DNA from: Chitinophagales bacterium | GTDB taxonomy: Bacteria > Bacteroidota > Bacteroidia > Chitinophagales > CAIOSU01 | Assembly: GCA_026003335.1 (NCBI GenBank) | Contig: BPHB01000001.1 | Location: 1,014,591 to 1,078,590, forward strand | Length of the DNA stretch: 64,000 nt | Direction of reading: 5' to 3' | In this document: positions 52,987 to 64,000 of the stretch, piece after piece | Layout: each line of letters starts with the position of its first letter | Numbering within the stretch: position 1 is the first letter of the stretch | Notes under the pieces: generated by a model | The model's input: only the letters and a program-made list of their open reading frames with translations | Told to the model about the DNA's origin: nothing | Databases searched by the model: none | Translations under genes and position numbers: made by a program

Positions 52987-54102
52987 TCAGTTTTCCAGCC
53001 ATGCCTCCACTTCAGGCCCCAAACGCATTGCCATGGCCTCAGCAATCTTTTCATGACCTGCAGCCGTAACATGGCAGTCATCCAGAAACCATTGGGGATT
53101 ATTACCTAGCAGGTCAGCAAGGGAAAAAGCAAAGTTTCTCTCGTGGGTGCCTTTCTCCAATGTGCGGTATAGCACTTGTAAAGCCTGTCTTCTGCGATCA
53201 TCCGAATTTACGGGAGAAGCGGCAAACCGCACCGGCTGAAAAAAACTGTAATACGAGATACCTTTGGCTTTGCAGAACGCATGGGTATCATCTATAATTT
53301 GCCAGTAACGCCTGCTGACAGCACCAGATTTTTCCCGCACAAATGTCTCCCAGTCAAATTGCCGCTCGTATTGCCGCTGTCGGAGAAACTGCACCGCCCG
53401 GTTGATATTGCTGAACAGCAGGGATAGAGCTCTCCACCGCTGATTTTCCTTTTGCAATGTCTCCACAAAACGCAAATATTCCCAATGATGCGGAGGCAGT
53501 TCAAATTCTGCCCTATTCCTCCGGTTGAGGATAACCGTAAGCAGGTCATTATACCCATCCAGCCCGATAATCACGTCAGGCTCGTAGTGTTGCACAATGA
53601 GCTGTATAAGAAGAAACTCCTGCTCTACCACATAAGCTGACATGCCGGCATTTATTACTTCAATACGGTTGGTATGAAAAGCGGCATTCAGCTTCTGCTC
53701 CAGATAATACGCAATGCTTTGTTCCGGCTCTCTGCCTCTTGCCACACTGCCCCCTACCAAAACAATACGAAAATGGCCGGCTTTTTTTTCTACCGGATAA
53801 GCCGTCTTAAAGCCATGCACATTGAGACCCGGCACTGAATCAAACAGATAATATAAATACGGGAAGTCATGGATAGCCATAGGTTCAAGCCCCCTATCCT
53901 TAAAATGAAACAGAATGCCCAGGGCCAACTCAACTATGATGACCAGAATTACCAACAGTAAGCCGCTCAGCAGTATGTATTTTACGTATTTTATCACCGG
54001 AATGGTCAGACGAGAGCCTCTTGGAAAAATAGCTAAATTTAACCGCCCTAAAAAAAACCGAACATGCAAATACGAAACGACTGGACCAAGGAAGAGATTC
54101 AT
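52987..54102 (-). CDS. Membrane-anchored SGNH/GDSL hydrolase-like protein
   Basis: About 370 residues with one N-terminal membrane helix ([20 protein letters not shown]) and an SGNH hydrolase fold: block [12 protein letters not shown], block II ISAGMSAYV-type glycine, block [12 protein letters not shown] and block [18 protein letters not shown] with the Asp/His pair. It may be an esterase or acyltransferase-like enzyme acting on envelope polymers. The start is uncertain: ATG at 54102 lies inside divergent bioB (head-on overlap of about 39 bases); GTG at 53997, just before the membrane helix, would avoid overlap. Confidence 0.82.
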
Positions 54103-55029
54103 GCCATATACCACCTACCCCTGCTGGAACTGATTTACCGCGCAGCTGCCACCCACCAGCAATTTCATGCTACAGGAGAGGTGCAGGTGTGTACCCTGCT
54201 ATCCGTAAAGACCGGAGGTTGTCCGGAAGATTGTGCCTACTGCCCTCAGGCTGCCCGTTACCAAACCGATGTAGAACCACATAAGCTGCTGGACAAGGAA
54301 ACGGTAGTGGCTGCTGCCCGTGAAGCCAAAGAAGCCGGAGCCTCACGCTTCTGCATGGGCGCAGCCTGGCGTGAAATCCGTGACAACCGCGATTTTGAAA
54401 AGGTGCTGGACATGGTCAGGGAAGTAAATGCCCTTGGACTGGAAGTGTGCTGCACCATGGGTATGCTTACTGAAAGTCAGGCTCAGAAACTGAAAGAAGC
54501 AGGTTTGTATGCCTACAATCACAACCTGGATACCTCAGAAGGCTATTATAATAAAATTATCACCACCAGAACTTATGCCGATCGTTTGCAAACGCTGCGT
54601 CACGTCCGTAAGGCAGGTATCAGCATCTGCAGCGGAGGTATTATCGGCATGGGCGAAACCGATGAGGATCGTATCCATCTGCTGCACACACTGGCTACCT
54701 TGCCTGCTCATCCTGAAAGTGTGCCGATCAATGCCCTGGTGCCGGTGAAGGGCACTCCGATGGAAAATGCAAAACGTGTGTCTGTGTGGGAGCTGGTGCG
54801 CATGATTGCCACTGCACGTATTCTGATGCCTGCGGCCATGATTCGCCTGTCTGCCGGACGCCATGGCATGCCGATAGCCGAACAGGCACTATGTTTTCTT
54901 GCCGGAGCCAACTCCATATTTTCAGGAGAAAAGCTACTGACCACCCCCAATCCGAATTTTGTAGATGACCGGAAAATGTTTGAACTGCTGGGATTGCGGG
55001 CTAAAGCTCCTGAGCCTATTACAGTTTAA
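54064..55029 (+). CDS. bioB: Biotin synthase BioB
   Basis: A 321-residue radical SAM enzyme that inserts sulfur into dethiobiotin. Radical SAM cluster Cys are C53, C57 and C60 (CPEDCAYC), preceded by [11 protein letters not shown]. Conserved segments [39 protein letters not shown] and [14 protein letters not shown] fit; the Cys ligands of the auxiliary [2Fe-2S] cluster are in these blocks. First gene of bioB-bioF-bioD; the start of bioF is 25 bases downstream of its stop. No promoter or BirA operator is identifiable with confidence. Confidence 0.96.
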
Positions 55030-56855: not shown

Positions 56856-56920
56856 CACGGATTTTTCCAGGCTTTAAAAAGCAGAAAAAAAAACAGAGCC
56901 AGACCGCCTTTGGAATTGGC

Positions 56921-56950
56921 TGCGAATATTTAATTTGCGAATATTTAATT
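56921..56950 (+). repeat. Tandem 15-bp direct repeat
   Basis: TGCGAATATTTAATT occurs twice back to back, exactly. It lies in the 245-base AT-rich gap between bioD and the sulfotransferase-like gene, where no gene is visible. It could be a regulatory site of the downstream locus or a neutral slippage product. Confidence 0.6.
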
Positions 56951-57100
56951 TTGGAACGTCCTGCTGCATGCATATTTAACAATGCAAAGGGAAAACCATT
57001 GATTATAAAATGCAGTTAACCTATACTTTCGGATTGTTTATAATGCCAGCCTTTTAGGTCGTCCGCCTATCCTGAAACAAGCTAATGATGAAAATTTTCT

Positions 57101-57913
57101 ATGAAAGAGGTGTATTATCTTATCGTAGGTTTGCCACGCAGCGGAAATACTGTTTTGCACCTAGCACTTGCCGCCCATCCGCAGGTCAGCGCCTGCATTG
57201 ACGAAATAAAATACCACCCTTTTTTCAGCGAAGGGATTTCGGTGTTTACCCGAGGAGGTGAAACTGAGCAGGAAAAGCAGAATAGCCACTTAGGTCTATT
57301 CCAAATGATGGCATCCCTGAGTGGGAAGAAGAAGGTCAAAGCTTATGGCTTGCACACCGTTATATCCCACACGGAAGCGGCTGATCTTGTATATGCCATT
57401 CAGAAAAATTATCCTGCGGTGAGAATCATTTACGTCAAGAGGCTTAACATCATAGCACAGCTTGCATCTGTAATCCGTTCGGATAAAAAACAACTCTGGA
57501 TTTCCATGCAGCCCGTAGAGCCGGATTACTCGCCCCTGTCTATTGACCGGCAGCACTTAATCGAATATACCCAACAGGTCATTAGGGCCCTTGACCGAAT
57601 GGAAGACTTAAAGACAACCCATTCGGTCAAGGAATGGATATACGAATTTCAACTGGAGCAGTGTCAAAACTTTACCGAACTATTTGATTTTCTTGGTTTA
57701 GACGGTTTTTACGCATACCCTTTTCTTCCCTCAAAGCTTAACCCCCCTGCAAGGACTTACGTACATGATTATTTTGAACTCCTGGAAATCGTAGCCCGCA
57801 TTATTGAACAAGAACCGATACACCTGGGACTAAAAAAGCAGTTCCTGGACTACATACAAACCGAATTGTCAGCACCGCTTGACAAAAGCAAACCAGATTT
57901 TGCTGCCGCATAA
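57101..57913 (+). CDS. Sulfotransferase-like protein
   Basis: A 270-residue protein resembling PAPS-dependent sulfotransferases. The 5'-phosphosulfate-binding loop is GLPRSGNT (10-17). A likely 3'-phosphate-binding segment is RIIYVKRLNIIAQLAS (108-123, with Arg 114 and Ser 123). The C-terminal half is all helical with no recognised domain. Substrates of this class are carbohydrates, proteins or small molecules. It opens a co-directional cluster with three radical SAM genes and an SGNH gene, suggesting a shared modification pathway. Acceptor unknown. Confidence 0.78.
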   Translation: MKEVYYLIVGLPRSGNTVLHLALAAHPQVSACIDEIKYHPFFSEGISVFTRGGETEQEKQNSHLGLFQMMASLSGKKKVKAYGLHTVISHTEAADLVYAIQKNYPAVRIIYVKRLNIIAQLASVIRSDKKQLWISMQPVEPDYSPLSIDRQHLIEYTQQVIRALDRMEDLKTTHSVKEWIYEFQLEQCQNFTELFDFLGLDGFYAYPFLPSKLNPPARTYVHDYFELLEIVARIIEQEPIHLGLKKQFLDYIQTELSAPLDKSKPDFAAA

Positions 57914-58027
57914 GGCAAATCTCACATCGGCAACCACAACGGAAAAAATCGGGATTGGCTGAATCTTCGGGCTCCCCGCCATAGAGATAAAATGGCAGGA
58001 ATCCGGCTATCATTGTAACTTCATGGC

Positions 58028-59401
58028 ATGTTGAATAAACTAAGAAATAATGTTTCATCACTATTCCGTGAACAGCCCGACCCCTATGCCGCCTATGATG
58101 CCTCCCGCTACATAGCCGATAAGCGCTACTTATGCTTTGCTCCCTTTAACAACATGTACTTTAATGTACATGGAGAGGTAGCTCCCTGCTGGCTCACCCT
58201 CACCGGTGCAGATAACATCCGGGAAAAAAGCATTAAAGAAATCTGGCAGGGCAATCGTTTCCGGCACATACGTCAGGCCATTGAAAAACGCGATTTATCC
58301 TTTGCCTGCACCACCTGTGAAAAAAATATCCGCAGCGGCAATCATATTTCATCTCTCTCCCGCCTTTACGATCTGGACTATCCTTTATCCGATTTTCCGG
58401 TAGAAATGGAGTTTGAGCTTAGTAATACCTGTAATCTGGAATGTGTAATGTGTAAGGGTGAACTCTCGTCCACTATCCGGAAAAACCGGGAACAGCTACC
58501 CCCGCTGGAGGTGCCCTATGATGAAAATTTCGTGGAGCAGCTTACCGAATTTCTCCCGCATCTGAAGGAAGCAAAATTCCTCGGTGGCGAACCGTTTCTT
58601 ATCCCGATTTATTACAAAATCTGGGAAAAAATCATTGCCGTTAATCCGCGCATAAAAATTACGGTAACCACAAACGGCACCGTCTGGAACCGAAGAGTTG
58701 AGCGTATCCTTCAATCCCTGGACTTCAGCATCATCATGTCCATTGACGCCTTTACCAGAGATACCTATCACGCTATCCGGATAGGCAGCGATTTTGATAA
58801 GGTAATCTCCAATTTTGAGCGCTTCAGAAACTATACCCGCCAGAAAAAGACTTATATGGGCATATCCGTGAATCCGCTCCGGAAAAACTGGAAGGAACTG
58901 AAAGCGTATGTGGACTTCTGCAATCAAAAAGATGTCTTCCTGTGGTTTAATACCATCGTATATCCCTTTGATGAAGCCCTCTGGACATGGGGGGCGCGCA
59001 GGCTTGAGGAAGTGTATCGTGTGCTTTCGGCACAACATCCAGCAGACAGGGAAGCCGTCTGCCGCAAAGAAGTTTATCATTCTAATGTCACCAATTACAA
59101 AAATCTGGTGGAAGTGCAGATAAAAAACTGGTGGCAACAGGCTGTGCAGAAGGAGCAGCAGAAAACACAATACCTTAAAACCCTCAGCCCTGCAGAACTG
59201 AGGGAAAAATTGCGGGAACAACTTTTATCTTATGTTTACTCAGATGCCTACCTGCCCGCATCCATCAAAGAGCAAAAGGCCCTGTGCGTTGAAGAAAAGA
59301 TAAACCAGCTGCAGTCCGAATCGCACACCGGGGAACTTAAAAAACTTTTTCTGCTTCCTGAAACGGAAGCCATGCAAATCATAGCCAATGAAACTTTGTA
59401 A
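58028..59401 (+). CDS. Radical SAM protein with N-terminal SPASM-like cysteine module (first of three)
   Basis: A 457-residue radical SAM protein. An N-terminal module has C36, C54, C94 and C97 in the arrangement C-X17-C-X39-C-X2-C, as in SPASM/twitch auxiliary-cluster domains, with a PC, an EIW helix and a CTTC ending. The radical SAM core follows, with CNLECVMC (C135, C139, C142), then FLGGEPF, TVTTNGTVW and MSIDAFTRDTYHAI. A helical, charged C-terminal tail (about 345-457) completes it. SPASM modules are normally C-terminal, so this order is unusual. It is followed without a gap by the second radical SAM gene. Product unknown. Confidence 0.85.
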   Translation: MLNKLRNNVSSLFREQPDPYAAYDASRYIADKRYLCFAPFNNMYFNVHGEVAPCWLTLTGADNIREKSIKEIWQGNRFRHIRQAIEKRDLSFACTTCEKNIRSGNHISSLSRLYDLDYPLSDFPVEMEFELSNTCNLECVMCKGELSSTIRKNREQLPPLEVPYDENFVEQLTEFLPHLKEAKFLGGEPFLIPIYYKIWEKIIAVNPRIKITVTTNGTVWNRRVERILQSLDFSIIMSIDAFTRDTYHAIRIGSDFDKVISNFERFRNYTRQKKTYMGISVNPLRKNWKELKAYVDFCNQKDVFLWFNTIVYPFDEALWTWGARRLEEVYRVLSAQHPADREAVCRKEVYHSNVTNYKNLVEVQIKNWWQQAVQKEQQKTQYLKTLSPAELREKLREQLLSYVYSDAYLPASIKEQKALCVEEKINQLQSESHTGELKKLFLLPETEAMQIIANETL

Positions 59402-60652
59402 ATGAGGCCGCCCGTGATTGAGAAATTTCTCCGCTACCTGCATATCAGGCCCGGAACAAAGCTGAGGCCGGCTCCCGACAATTCTGTATGCCTGTATCCT
59501 TTCTTTAATATCATGGTCACAGCAGGAGGCAATTACAAGCCCTGCTGCAAATTTTCCGGTCACCTTTCCCATGCAGGTACATTATTGCAGACACCCCATC
59601 ATACATTTCTTGATGCCTGGAATTCCAGTGATATGCAGAAGCTGCGCCAGGAATTGCTGCGCGGAGAAAAACCACAGGGGTGCCGCGTGTGCTGGGAAGA
59701 AGAAAGCAAGGGCATTCAGTCCATGCGTTATGACTCAGCCGATTATCCTGTCACCGAAACGCACATCCAGCAAAGCCCTGCACCGTTAAGAATTGACCTT
59801 TACCCGAGCAATGTCTGCAATCTGAAATGCCGCATCTGCAGTCCGCATTACAGCAGCAAATGGATACCTGAGGCACGGGAAACGTTGGGTGTGGAAGAAG
59901 AAATGCATCTTAATCTTACCGAAGAAAACTTCAGCCAGCTCAGGGCCTGGCTTCCCAACATAGTAGAAATAGGCTTGTTCGGAGGCGAACCTCTTTACCT
60001 CAAAGAGACGCATACTTTACTGGAATACTGTGTAGAACAGCAGCTCAGCAAAAACATCACTCTTCTTATTAATACAAACGCTACAATTTATTCCGACCGG
60101 CTCATGGGACTATTCCATGCTTTTAAAAAAGTCATCCTGAACTTTAGCATTGACGATATAGAAAAACGATTTGAATATCAGCGTAAGGGTGCAAAATGGG
60201 AAGAGGCAGTGCAGAATATGCAATCCTATCTTGCCCATGGCGGAAGCACAAAAGCCGATGCTCCCATAGAATGCAAAATCTGCTGCACCATCAGCATATT
60301 CAACATTTTTTACCTTCCGGAGTTACTGGATTGGATAGACACGCACCTTCCCGGCATGCGTGTGTATCTCAACCTGCTGCATGGGCCCTACGCCCTGTCT
60401 GTAAGGAATCTGCCCGGGCAGGTTAAGACCCACGTGATTTCAAAAATTGCAGGCTACCGGCCGCGTACTTTGCAATTTCAGGAAAAAGCCACCCGCACAC
60501 TGGATAATGTGGTTGAATTTCTGAATCTGCCTCCCAACGTCCCTTTTACAGAATGTCTCAAAGAAATAAAACGGGGGGACATATACAGAAAGGAAAGTTT
60601 TGAAGAGGTATTTCCGGAAATGCACAAGCTCCTGCAGCAGGCTCAGGCTTAG
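59402..60652 (+). CDS. Radical SAM protein with N-terminal SPASM-like module (second of three)
   Basis: A 416-residue protein, closely similar to the third gene of the set. N-terminal cysteines C30, C48, C94 and C97 (C-X17-C-X45-C-X2-C; CLYPFFNIMVT, KPCCK, CRVCWEE). Radical SAM cluster CNLKCRIC (C139, C143, C146), then LFGGEPLY, TNATIYS and FSIDDIEKRFEYQRKG. Its ATG lies directly after the TAA of the preceding gene. Annotated homologues are usually called twitch domain-containing radical SAM proteins; their chemistry is not known. Confidence 0.86.
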   Translation: MRPPVIEKFLRYLHIRPGTKLRPAPDNSVCLYPFFNIMVTAGGNYKPCCKFSGHLSHAGTLLQTPHHTFLDAWNSSDMQKLRQELLRGEKPQGCRVCWEEESKGIQSMRYDSADYPVTETHIQQSPAPLRIDLYPSNVCNLKCRICSPHYSSKWIPEARETLGVEEEMHLNLTEENFSQLRAWLPNIVEIGLFGGEPLYLKETHTLLEYCVEQQLSKNITLLINTNATIYSDRLMGLFHAFKKVILNFSIDDIEKRFEYQRKGAKWEEAVQNMQSYLAHGGSTKADAPIECKICCTISIFNIFYLPELLDWIDTHLPGMRVYLNLLHGPYALSVRNLPGQVKTHVISKIAGYRPRTLQFQEKATRTLDNVVEFLNLPPNVPFTECLKEIKRGDIYRKESFEEVFPEMHKLLQQAQA

Positions 60653-60719
60653 TCTCCCTTAAATCTGTATTTCCTTACATCCGTATTTTGATTAACTTAG
60701 CTTACATCAGAAAAGACCT

Positions 60720-62312
60720 ATGAGAAACCCCGAAGATTCCAATTTCTGCTACTATCCGTTTTTTCAGATTCTGGTTACTGCAGAAGGGAAATACAAACCA
60801 TGCAGTAAACATGATGACCATATTCAGCATAAGGGCAGAATACTGACAACTAAAAATGCAACGCTGGAAGATGCCTGGAATTCCGATTACATGCAGCAAA
60901 TGCGGCATGATTTCAATCATGGCATCCTTTTTCCCGGATGCGCTGAATGCTGGCGCATGCAGAAAATGGGGCTGCGTTCCATGCGCTATGATTCCTATCA
61001 ATATGGCATCTCAGAAGAACAGGTAGCCAATCCGGTAAATCCCACACGCATAGAAATAAACTCCTCTAATGTGTGCAATCTTAAATGCAGAATCTGTACT
61101 CCCACAGCATCCAGCAAATGGATAAAAGAGGGTAAAGATCTTTATGCATGGAATCAAAAAATACATGATAATCTGAATGGTAAAAATCTGGAGCAGATAA
61201 AACGATGGGCTCCCAATCTCACTGAACTATGTTTTTTCGGAGGTGAACCTCTGTTGTCAGAAGAAAATCTCATCTTGTTGGACTATCTGATACGGGAAGG
61301 CTACGCCAAAAATATTGCCTTACTTTTTAATACCAACGGAACTGTTTTCAATGAAGAAATTGAAGCCCGTCTCCTGCCATTCAAAAGAGTAAGATTTCAT
61401 TTCAGCATTGATGACATCGGGAAGCGTTTTGAATATCAACGATATGGCGCCTCATGGAAAACAGTGGAAGAAAATCTGCATAAGGTTTACCGCCAGTCCA
61501 TGACACCGGCATGGAAGCATATTGAATTTAAAATATGTTGTACGGTATCTACGCTGAACATTTACTACTTCCCCGAATTTTTTACTTATCTGAATACACA
61601 TTTACCGGGTCTGAAAGTGCTCTGGAATCTGTTATATGATCCGTGGGAGTTTTCCGTTCAGGTACTTCCTCCCCAAGTCAAAGAAATTGTCCGCCAAAGA
61701 CTGTTGACCATCCGGCCTTCCTATACCTTGAGCGAAGGGGAAACCAAAACCATGGAGACGCTGATTAAATACCTGGAGCATCAGGTGCATAAGCCTTTTG
61801 AAGAGTTTTTCAGGCTTGTCAACAGGCACGATGTCTACCGCAAGGAGAGCTTTGCGGAAACTTTTCCGGAATTCTATCAGATTATACAAAAATATAAGCC
61901 CGCTAATTTAACTCCCGGCGGATACGACCAATACGACCTGATTCAGCAACGCATGCTGACCAATATCAGTCAATACAAATACCTCAACTATTTTGAAAAC
62001 CTCAGAGACACAGTCAATCTCACCGAACCCCGCGACACAGAAACCTGGAACGAACTAAGCCACGTGGTACTGCAAGCCCTCCGTGAGATTGCCGCAGAAA
62101 TAAACCGGGATACCTCATTTGAAATAAAAATGCACCTCCTGAAAGAACTGCTGGAAGGTCATCACTTTAATCAGCGCGACTTTCTGCATGACTGTTGTGT
62201 GTACGGTCTTTTCCGCATTTATAAATCACTGTGCGACATAAGCAGTGCCGAGATAAATAGTCTGCTGCTTCGTAAATATCCGGCAGACATGCAATACAAA
62301 TATGTAAATTAA
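60720..62312 (+). CDS. Radical SAM protein with N-terminal SPASM-like module and C-terminal extension (third of three)
   Basis: A 530-residue paralogue of the second gene: C10, C28, C74 and C77 (C-X17-C-X45-C-X2-C), radical SAM cluster CNLKCRIC (C119, C123, C126), FFGGEPLL, TNGTVF and FSIDDIGKRFEYQRYGASW. Shared later segments include KICCTVSTLNIYYFPEF and THLPGLKVLWNLL. It has an extra C-terminal helical region (about 410-530) of no recognised family. The gap to the second gene is 67 bases. Likely arose by tandem duplication followed by divergence. Confidence 0.86.
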   Translation: MRNPEDSNFCYYPFFQILVTAEGKYKPCSKHDDHIQHKGRILTTKNATLEDAWNSDYMQQMRHDFNHGILFPGCAECWRMQKMGLRSMRYDSYQYGISEEQVANPVNPTRIEINSSNVCNLKCRICTPTASSKWIKEGKDLYAWNQKIHDNLNGKNLEQIKRWAPNLTELCFFGGEPLLSEENLILLDYLIREGYAKNIALLFNTNGTVFNEEIEARLLPFKRVRFHFSIDDIGKRFEYQRYGASWKTVEENLHKVYRQSMTPAWKHIEFKICCTVSTLNIYYFPEFFTYLNTHLPGLKVLWNLLYDPWEFSVQVLPPQVKEIVRQRLLTIRPSYTLSEGETKTMETLIKYLEHQVHKPFEEFFRLVNRHDVYRKESFAETFPEFYQIIQKYKPANLTPGGYDQYDLIQQRMLTNISQYKYLNYFENLRDTVNLTEPRDTETWNELSHVVLQALREIAAEINRDTSFEIKMHLLKELLEGHHFNQRDFLHDCCVYGLFRIYKSLCDISSAEINSLLLRKYPADMQYKYVN

Positions 62313-62360
62313 CATTGCTTCACAGTATTCTGCGGGTACTTCCATGGTCAGACAGGAAGA

Positions 62361-63434
62361 ATGCCAGAGGAAAGATTTACTGCATGCATCGATATAATCC
62401 AAACGGTGAAATGTCTTCTCTTTTCGGTTTTGTTTTTCATTTTCTTACTGGAAGCGGCTCTTCGCATCACGGGCAAATGGATTACCGCATCTGAAAAAAG
62501 CACCGGGAGATTTTTTTATGAATGGGGCTATGAAACGCATCGCCACTACGCCTATCCGCCTAACGATACCTTTGTGATGGATATAGGTGAATACAGCTGG
62601 GAGTACCACACCAACAGCCTGGGATATCGCGAGAGGGAAATGGATACCGCACCTCCACACGCAATCCGGGCATTGGTTATTGGCGATTCCTTTGCCGAAG
62701 GTAATGGAACCTCCTACGATAGCTCATGGGCTCGTCATCTGGAACGCAGGCTGCAACAAAAACATCCGGATGCAGAAGTGTATGTATGCGGAATTTCCGG
62801 ATTTGATCCTTTTTATGCATATGTTGCCCTGAAAGAGCGACTGCTGCCTTACCGCCCTACCCACGTTTTGATTTCTGTAAATGATTCAGACTTTGACGAC
62901 TTCATTATACGGGGCGGCTTCAGCCGTTTTAAAGACGGGAATCGTGTGCAATATAAAGATCCTCCCTGGTTTCTGCCTGTTTATCGGTATAGTCATATCG
63001 CACGCATGATCGCTCACACGTTTTGCCACTACGACTATTACCTGATACAACGTGTACATACGGAAAAGGTACGCAGAGAAGCTGCCGATAGCATATCCGC
63101 CTGTTTACAAAACATATATCAACTATGCCGGGAAAATCATATCCGATTCCTGGCGGTTATTTATCCGGTTCCACACAAGGTTTGTTATGCCACCGATGAC
63201 CATATCTTGTCTGATGTGCCTGCGCTGGAAAAAACAACAGCAGCCTATCCCGCGCTGTTTCTGTATAACGACCTGAGCAAAAACCTCAAAGCAGGTGATT
63301 GCATGAGTTACTGTTGGAAAACAGACAGCCATTTCAACAACAAAGGATATGCACTACTGGCTCATCTGATTGACTCGGCTATACAGGCTCAACATCCGGA
63401 TTTCTGGAGCATACCTGATTCCCCGGGATACTGA
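62361..63434 (+). CDS. Membrane-anchored SGNH/GDSL hydrolase-like protein
   Basis: A 357-residue protein with an N-terminal membrane helix (VKCLLFSVLFFIFLLEAAL) and SGNH blocks: VIGDSFAEGNG (Ser), VCGISGFDPFYA (Gly), ISVNDSDFDD (Asn region) and TDSHFNNKGYALL (Asp/His). The active site faces outside the inner membrane. Many SGNH proteins with this layout are O-acetyl/acyl-transferases or esterases of envelope glycans. It is last in the radical SAM/sulfotransferase run, 48 bases after it. Its last 46 bases overlap the convergent gene. Confidence 0.83.
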   Translation: MPEERFTACIDIIQTVKCLLFSVLFFIFLLEAALRITGKWITASEKSTGRFFYEWGYETHRHYAYPPNDTFVMDIGEYSWEYHTNSLGYREREMDTAPPHAIRALVIGDSFAEGNGTSYDSSWARHLERRLQQKHPDAEVYVCGISGFDPFYAYVALKERLLPYRPTHVLISVNDSDFDDFIIRGGFSRFKDGNRVQYKDPPWFLPVYRYSHIARMIAHTFCHYDYYLIQRVHTEKVRREAADSISACLQNIYQLCRENHIRFLAVIYPVPHKVCYATDDHILSDVPALEKTTAAYPALFLYNDLSKNLKAGDCMSYCWKTDSHFNNKGYALLAHLIDSAIQAQHPDFWSIPDSPGY

Positions 63435-64000
63435 GGCGCCCCCTGTAATACATTTTTACCCGGATGTGTTATCCTTTCGGGAATGACCACTGTCTTTCCG
63501 CCTTTTTGAATCAAAATCTGCCAATTGCAATCCGCGCACAGGTTCACACCTTTTACAATCAATGTTTCTGCATATCCATTCGCTACATCAGCCATCAGCG
63601 GAAACAATCGTATTTTTTCTCTTTCGCCTTCCTGATAAAGTAACACATAGTGCAGGTTATTGCTGAATCCTGAATAGACGGGCGTTGGCCCGGTGTTGTA
63701 AAGATGTATCCTGAACGCAGCCTGCCGCCATCCGGCACAGTTCTCAACCCGACTAACCCGGGCAGACACATGTGCTTTCAGATATTCCCAATCATTTTCC
63801 TTTTCTTCATTCAGCAGGCAATATGCTGATGAAGAAAAAGGAAAAAAATGCGGATTTACCGGCTCCGAGATTTGGTGTATATGATTCAGCAACTCCTGCT
63901 GCATAGCTTCATTTACAGGAAAACGTTTTGACTTGCGGGCCGGATCAGAAGGCCCTTCACGGAGAGCAATCCCCTGCCGGTGCCACTCCAGCATTTCCCA
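63389..64000 (-). CDS. Unknown protein, 5'-truncated by window edge
   Basis: At least 203 residues, reading open beyond base 64000. An internal Met at 63994 could be a start, but the frame continues upstream (WEMLEWH). The segment has mixed composition, NDWEYLKAHVSARVSRVEN, a GFSNNLHYVLLYQEGE stretch and a C-terminal VKGVNLCADCNWQILIQKGG. No family or catalytic motif is recognised. The 46-base overlap with the SGNH gene is long for convergent genes, so one of the two ends may be misjudged. Confidence 0.5.
   Translation of the reverse strand, partial: WEMLEWHRQGIALREGPSDPARKSKRFPVNEAMQQELLNHIHQISEPVNPHFFPFSSSAYCLLNEEKENDWEYLKAHVSARVSRVENCAGWRQAAFRIHLYNTGPTPVYSGFSNNLHYVLLYQEGEREKIRLFPLMADVANGYAETLIVKGVNLCADCNWQILIQKGGKTVVIPERITHPGKNVLQGAPQYPGESGMLQKSGC

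Follow-up and report, generated by a model that had tools for sequence, protein, structure and literature searches.

A Chitinophagales gene cluster of radical SAM enzymes with an N-terminal SPASM/twitch domain, SGNH proteins and sulfotransferases, with a probable role in surface-glycan tailoring

INTRODUCTION

The window analysed here, a 64,000-nucleotide stretch of a Chitinophagales genome (3.9 Mb in 24 contigs; window C1:1014591–1078590), carries a row of genes for a PAPS-type sulfotransferase (stf1), three radical SAM proteins (rsA, rsB and rsC) and an SGNH protein (sgnh1), and so raises the question of what such enzymes might modify together. The preliminary description had recognised no pathway with this set and had considered a glycan, a lipid or a peptide as the target. 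Our literature search, made mostly outside subscription journals, likewise gave no described pathway with these genes, and no paper was found under the name or accession of the N_Twi radical SAM family or for the combination of radical SAM, sulfotransferase and SGNH genes. Here, we report that the five genes belong to a larger cluster, that its radical SAM and SGNH part is conserved while its stf1-type sulfotransferase is a local addition, and that, judged from sequence, models and gene neighbourhoods, the cluster probably serves surface-glycan tailoring.

RESULTS

The five genes are part of a larger cluster

By an ORF check of the window, stf1-rsA-rsB-rsC-sgnh1 were verified as five intact ORFs on the plus strand, separated by 114, 0, 67 and 48 bases (Table 1), in agreement with the co-directional genes and the gaps of 0–114 bases described earlier; the earlier domain calls (sulfotransferase, three radical SAM, SGNH) were borne out as well by Pfam matches above the curated cut-offs. 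The previously given extent of 6.3 kb holds for the five genes, but these are only the left end of a cluster of ~21 kb. It extends beyond the window by ~15 kb, ends near 78515 in extended window coordinates and comprises seven radical SAM genes, two sulfotransferase genes, two SGNH genes and genes for three multi-TM proteins. The cluster membrane proteins have neither a Pfam match nor a PDB sequence match; tm1 is weakly related to tm2 and perhaps GT-C-like. As to export genes, no transporter was seen in the host cluster. The leader of stf1 is likely the promoter region; a search upstream of stf1 for the Bacteroidota promoter pattern (TTG, 18–23 bases, TAnnTTTG) gave no match, and sigma-70 and terminator scans returned fewer sites than shuffles.

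Table 1. Features of the cluster in extended window coordinates (the window ends at 64000)
Feature	Coordinates	Strand	Description	Basis
Leader 5′ of stf1	56856–57100	+	245 bases	
stf1	57101–57913	+	PAPS-type sulfotransferase, 270 aa	Pfam Sulfotransfer_3, alignment with stf2
rsA	58028–59401	+	Radical SAM, N-terminal SPASM/twitch, 457 aa	Pfam, NCBIfam, tree
rsB	59402–60652	+	N_Twi_rSAM, 416 aa	NF033640, 324 bits
rsC	60720–62312	+	N_Twi_rSAM, 530 aa, helical C-terminal extension	NF033640, 324 bits; model
sgnh1	62361–63434	+	Predicted membrane-anchored SGNH-fold esterase or acyltransferase, 357 aa	Pfam, model, TM prediction
tm1	63389–65230	−	Membrane protein, 613 aa; C-terminal part (63389–64000) inside the window	
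sgnh2	65302–66579		Second SGNH	
stf2	66647–67540		Second sulfotransferase	
tm2	67647–69113		Membrane protein, 488 aa	
rsD	69229–71901		Radical SAM, 890 aa	
rsE	71902–73458	−	Radical SAM	
rsF	73580–74761		Radical SAM	
rsG	74773–76368		Radical SAM	
CBS-domain-like gene	76378–76842	−		Named by eye
tm3	77025–78515		Membrane protein, 496 aa	

The radical SAM proteins carry a permuted SPASM/twitch domain

Pfam places the SPASM domain of rsA, rsB and rsC (36–97, 30–98 and 10–78, respectively) before the Radical_SAM core (130–279, 134–282 and 113–258), that is, in the reverse of the usual order. This permuted N-terminal SPASM/twitch domain with four Fe-S cysteines was identified in all seven radical SAM proteins of the cluster, confirming the auxiliary-cluster cysteines noticed before. 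In rsA, the cysteines are Cys 36, 54, 94 and 97, followed by CxxxCxxC at 135–142; the latter motif reads CNLECVMC in rsA and CNLKCRIC in both rsB and rsC. Among the 137 related proteins gathered, the host's included, every one keeps CxxxCxxC, and all seven Fe-S positions are cysteine in 136. Against the NCBIfam model NF033640 (N_Twi_rSAM, curated cut-off 170 bits), rsB (323.8 bits) and rsC (323.9 bits) pass, and rsA stays below with 152.3 bits; in the tree, the rsA clade has 25 members from 23 genomes. The seven proteins divide into two groups, B-C-D and A-E-F-G, with ~22–27% identity between them. The long C-terminal part of rsD (L001:17229–19901) has several stretches like the rsE C-terminus, as if a module were repeated. 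The host genome (G000) has an eighth N_Twi radical SAM gene on contig C3 (L036:9511–12304), beside a third SGNH gene with 40% identity to sgnh2.

The rsC model was confident (mean pLDDT 87, pTM 0.85), and its Foldseek and VIA-align matches, which cover mainly the radical SAM core, include anSME (Z 13.1, the best), DesII (12.8) and BlsE (12.4); a sactipeptide synthase falls with anSME in the range Z 12.7–13.1. Since DesII and BlsE have sugar-type substrates whereas those of anSME are proteins, the fold matches do not decide the substrate of rsC. For a profile of rsA, rsF, rsG and their relatives, the best PDB sequence match was the twitch domain of BtrN (E 1.4e-10), spanning the Fe-S domain only; the rsB/rsC profile had no match among PDB sequences.

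SGNH genes accompany the radical SAM genes

The sgnh1 protein matches Pfam Lipase_GDSL_2 with 38.7 bits (cut-off 32.9) and carries the nucleophile S110 in a GDS motif and D322-x-H324; none of these three residues varies in the 15 proteins aligned. One TM helix is predicted at its N-terminus, conforming to the membrane-anchored SGNH protein of the preliminary description, and it shares 32% identity with sgnh2. The nearest folds of its model (pLDDT 86) are GDSL and carbohydrate acetyl esterases, at modest TM-scores of ~0.44 by query length. An SGNH profile yielded 4–9 matches in each of ten genomes with arrays (10/10) and no match in five array-free genomes (0/5); of the 39 strong matches in those ten, 27 have an N_Twi gene within ~5 kb, compared with 0.35 expected. 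This closeness and the near-invariant Fe-S cysteines of the radical SAM proteins together indicate that the gene set is more than chance. Another SGNH-type gene of the window, upstream of bioB (52987–54114, minus strand), is barely over the Lipase_GDSL_2 cut-off and matches neither sgnh1 nor sgnh2 at E 1e-3.

Radical SAM and SGNH genes recur in conserved arrays

A search at E 1e-30 detected N_Twi_rSAM genes in 47 of 298 sampled Chitinophagales genomes, where they usually form arrays, and in 2 of 392 genomes sampled from the phylum, the host included; related loci are titled as Bacteroidetes MAGs, Chitinophagales among them, and a few are labelled Chryseobacterium or Chitinophaga. Frequent in these arrays are genes for a methyltransferase, UbiA, AsnB, one or two glycosyltransferases (Gly_transf_sug domain in the C-terminal half by Pfam), rsG convergent to rsA and rsE, rsC, rsH and an SGNH protein, and genes for an ABC-2-type permease, an ABC ATPase, a carbamoyltransferase, an NTP-transferase, GT2 and DegT lie in or beside several. 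The glycosyltransferase family and N_Twi genes occur together in 43 genomes and are both missing from ~244, with only N_Twi in four and only the glycosyltransferase family in six (Fisher 1.6e-40, a guide only as it ignores kinship). At one locus (L042:5304–9913), four PhyH-like dioxygenase genes stand in a row directly before an rsC gene, and this family recurs near other arrays.

A genome of another family (G037) holds relatives of rsA, rsB, rsC, rsE, rsF and rsG; rsA-rsB and rsF-rsG are adjacent there as in the host genome, and the host and G037 copies of rsA, rsB, rsE and rsF pair in the tree with support of 0.98–0.999. Thus, the radical SAM and SGNH genes sit in conserved arrays and are not scattered singly, so this part of the co-occurrence expected for the five genes stands; the sulfotransferase does not share it, as only the host, of 296 genomes searched in the order, has the stf1 type.

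The stf1-type sulfotransferase is a local addition

The stf1 protein matches Pfam Sulfotransfer_3 with 33.1 bits (cut-off 27). Its PAPS 5′-loop GLPRSGNT and the 3′-phosphate residues R114/S123, picked out by eye in the alignment, are kept in stf2 (45% identity) except for P12. A conserved five-gene unit including the sulfotransferase was rejected because the stf1 type is absent from the rest of the 296 genomes: it is a local addition, while the radical SAM and SGNH part is conserved. No stf1-type sulfotransferase was found in phage records. Other families take this place elsewhere, namely Sulfotransfer_4 beside the array in G037 and Stf0 beside an array on a virus contig (L095), and since the three families are unlike, sulfation may have been added to such arrays more than once. 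The host genome has an APS kinase gene, so PAPS can be made.

Similar arrays occur on virus contigs

N_Twi matches were found on five IMG/VR contigs, 2–9 on each. One of these (L092) is similar to the Chitinophagales arrays and could be of bacterial origin; tandem N_Twi arrays are present on L093, L094, L095 and L096. On L093 (67.8 kb), the array is followed by SGNH and carbamoyltransferase genes, with DegT and SDR genes farther along; on L095, it is accompanied, besides Stf0, by genes for a B12-radical SAM protein, a UDP-sugar dehydrogenase, a C-methyltransferase, SDRs, DegT and a cupin. The content of these two contigs, with deoxysugar genes on L095, is separate evidence of a sugar context. 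Among GenBank phage records, only Vibrio phages gave N_Twi matches, and these are distant; KVP40 (AY283928.2:136052–137152), for one, has an N_Twi-like radical SAM protein of ~24% identity that is annotated as moaA/nifB/pqqE family.

DISCUSSION

What the cluster modifies

From its sequence features, the cluster probably acts in surface-glycan tailoring, with the radical SAM enzymes editing sugars and the glycan being further acylated or deacylated and sulfated. This is suggested by the conserved neighbourhood with UbiA, AsnB, the Gly_transf_sug glycosyltransferase, methyltransferase and SGNH genes; by the co-occurrence of glycosyltransferase and N_Twi genes in 43 genomes, the closeness of SGNH genes, and the ABC, carbamoyltransferase, NTP-transferase, GT2 and DegT neighbours; by the sugar genes on virus contigs, the three sulfotransferase families beside arrays and the APS kinase; and by the BtrN twitch match and the carbohydrate acetyl esterase folds near that of the SGNH protein. 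Some observations speak against it. The UbiA and glycosyltransferase module of the host genome lies on contig C3, outside the cluster, which would then depend on distant genes; the BtrN match is confined to the Fe-S domain and the rsB/rsC profile finds nothing in the PDB; and, since sulfotransferases and carbamoyltransferases are common in glycan loci, finding them repeatedly is poor evidence for a single shared product.

Of the three targets considered in the preliminary description, a glycan is thus the most likely. A lipid or glycolipid pathway, in which the radical SAM enzymes and sulfotransferases would decorate a modified lipid made by UbiA, the methyltransferase and PhyH, appears unlikely: UbiA, CMAS/UbiE-like methyltransferase and PhyH dioxygenase genes do recur beside arrays, but all three are absent from the host cluster, glycosyltransferases and an ABC-2-type exporter recur near arrays as well, and the virus contig that was examined carries deoxysugar rather than lipid genes. 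More doubtful still is modification of a RiPP or protein, in which the SPASM-type enzymes would crosslink or epimerise a peptide before its sulfation and processing. Most SPASM enzymes are peptide maturases, and the rsC core is best matched by the protein-modifying anSME, with a sactipeptide synthase close by, both of which count against a glycan. However, all gaps from stf1 to rsG are ≤121 bases, no convincing small peptide gene was found in the two largest gaps of the window or in the 245-base leader, and the NCBIfam peptide-maturase models score the radical SAM proteins far under their cut-offs; moreover, the arrays of other genomes and of virus contigs sit among sugar and glycan genes. A RiPP precursor in those gaps was rejected as the small ORFs there are unconvincing, and the peptide is therefore the disfavoured target, although a precursor encoded at a distance is conceivable. 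Least probable is an island of unrelated surface-modification genes acting on different molecules, for although stf1 is peculiar to the host among the 296 genomes of the order and arrays vary in copy number and partners, the well-supported host and G037 pairs and the closeness of SGNH to radical SAM genes argue for a joint function of at least these two.

For surface-glycan tailoring, the order of steps that we infer would run as follows. In the cytoplasm, the paralogous radical SAM enzymes would oxidise, epimerise or otherwise edit sugars, possibly by BtrN-like dehydrogenation or by epimerisation, the sugars being either nucleotide-bound or part of a lipid-linked glycan. The glycan would be completed at the membrane, where the cluster membrane proteins may transfer sugars and the SGNH enzymes may attach O-acyl groups or take them off, and sulfate from PAPS would be put on it by stf1 and stf2.

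Relation to known systems

The family N_Twi_rSAM (NF033640) has the architecture of rsB and rsC, an N-terminal SPASM/twitch domain and then the radical SAM core, and is named without a function; rsA falls under its cut-off, and the literature searched holds no description of paralogue arrays with a dedicated SGNH family. BtrN, the twitch radical SAM dehydrogenase of butirosin, oxidises an aminocyclitol (PMC9012708). Like the cluster enzymes it has four cysteines for one auxiliary [4Fe-4S] cluster, but its twitch domain is C-terminal and that of rsA, rsB and rsC N-terminal, only the domain itself being BtrN-like. The SPASM peptide maturases and anSME share the radical SAM core fold (Z ~13) and the SPASM Pfam domain, but carry SPASM at the opposite end, whereas the cluster has no apparent precursor and a sugar-type neighbourhood. 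ABC-transporter-dependent surface polysaccharide loci likewise combine glycosyltransferases, an ABC-2-type permease and ABC ATPase, and sugar-nucleotide genes, which lie near several arrays; export genes are part of those loci, whereas no transporter was seen in the host cluster, and radical SAM arrays are not known from them.

It is conceivable, though we put it forward tentatively, that the N_Twi enzymes constitute a functional class of their own, in which sets of paralogues act successively on a lipid-linked or nucleotide-bound glycan and, alongside a dedicated SGNH family, introduce radical-based modifications, both in Chitinophagales and in viruses carrying similar arrays. A radical SAM subfamily that is named but functionally blank would thereby gain a testable role, and the conserved trio rsG/rsA/rsE plus SGNH offers a minimal set to express and test. 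If these enzymes do act on glycans, radical chemistry would be routine in the surface-sugar assembly of mostly uncultured Bacteroidota, and would be found on viruses as well.
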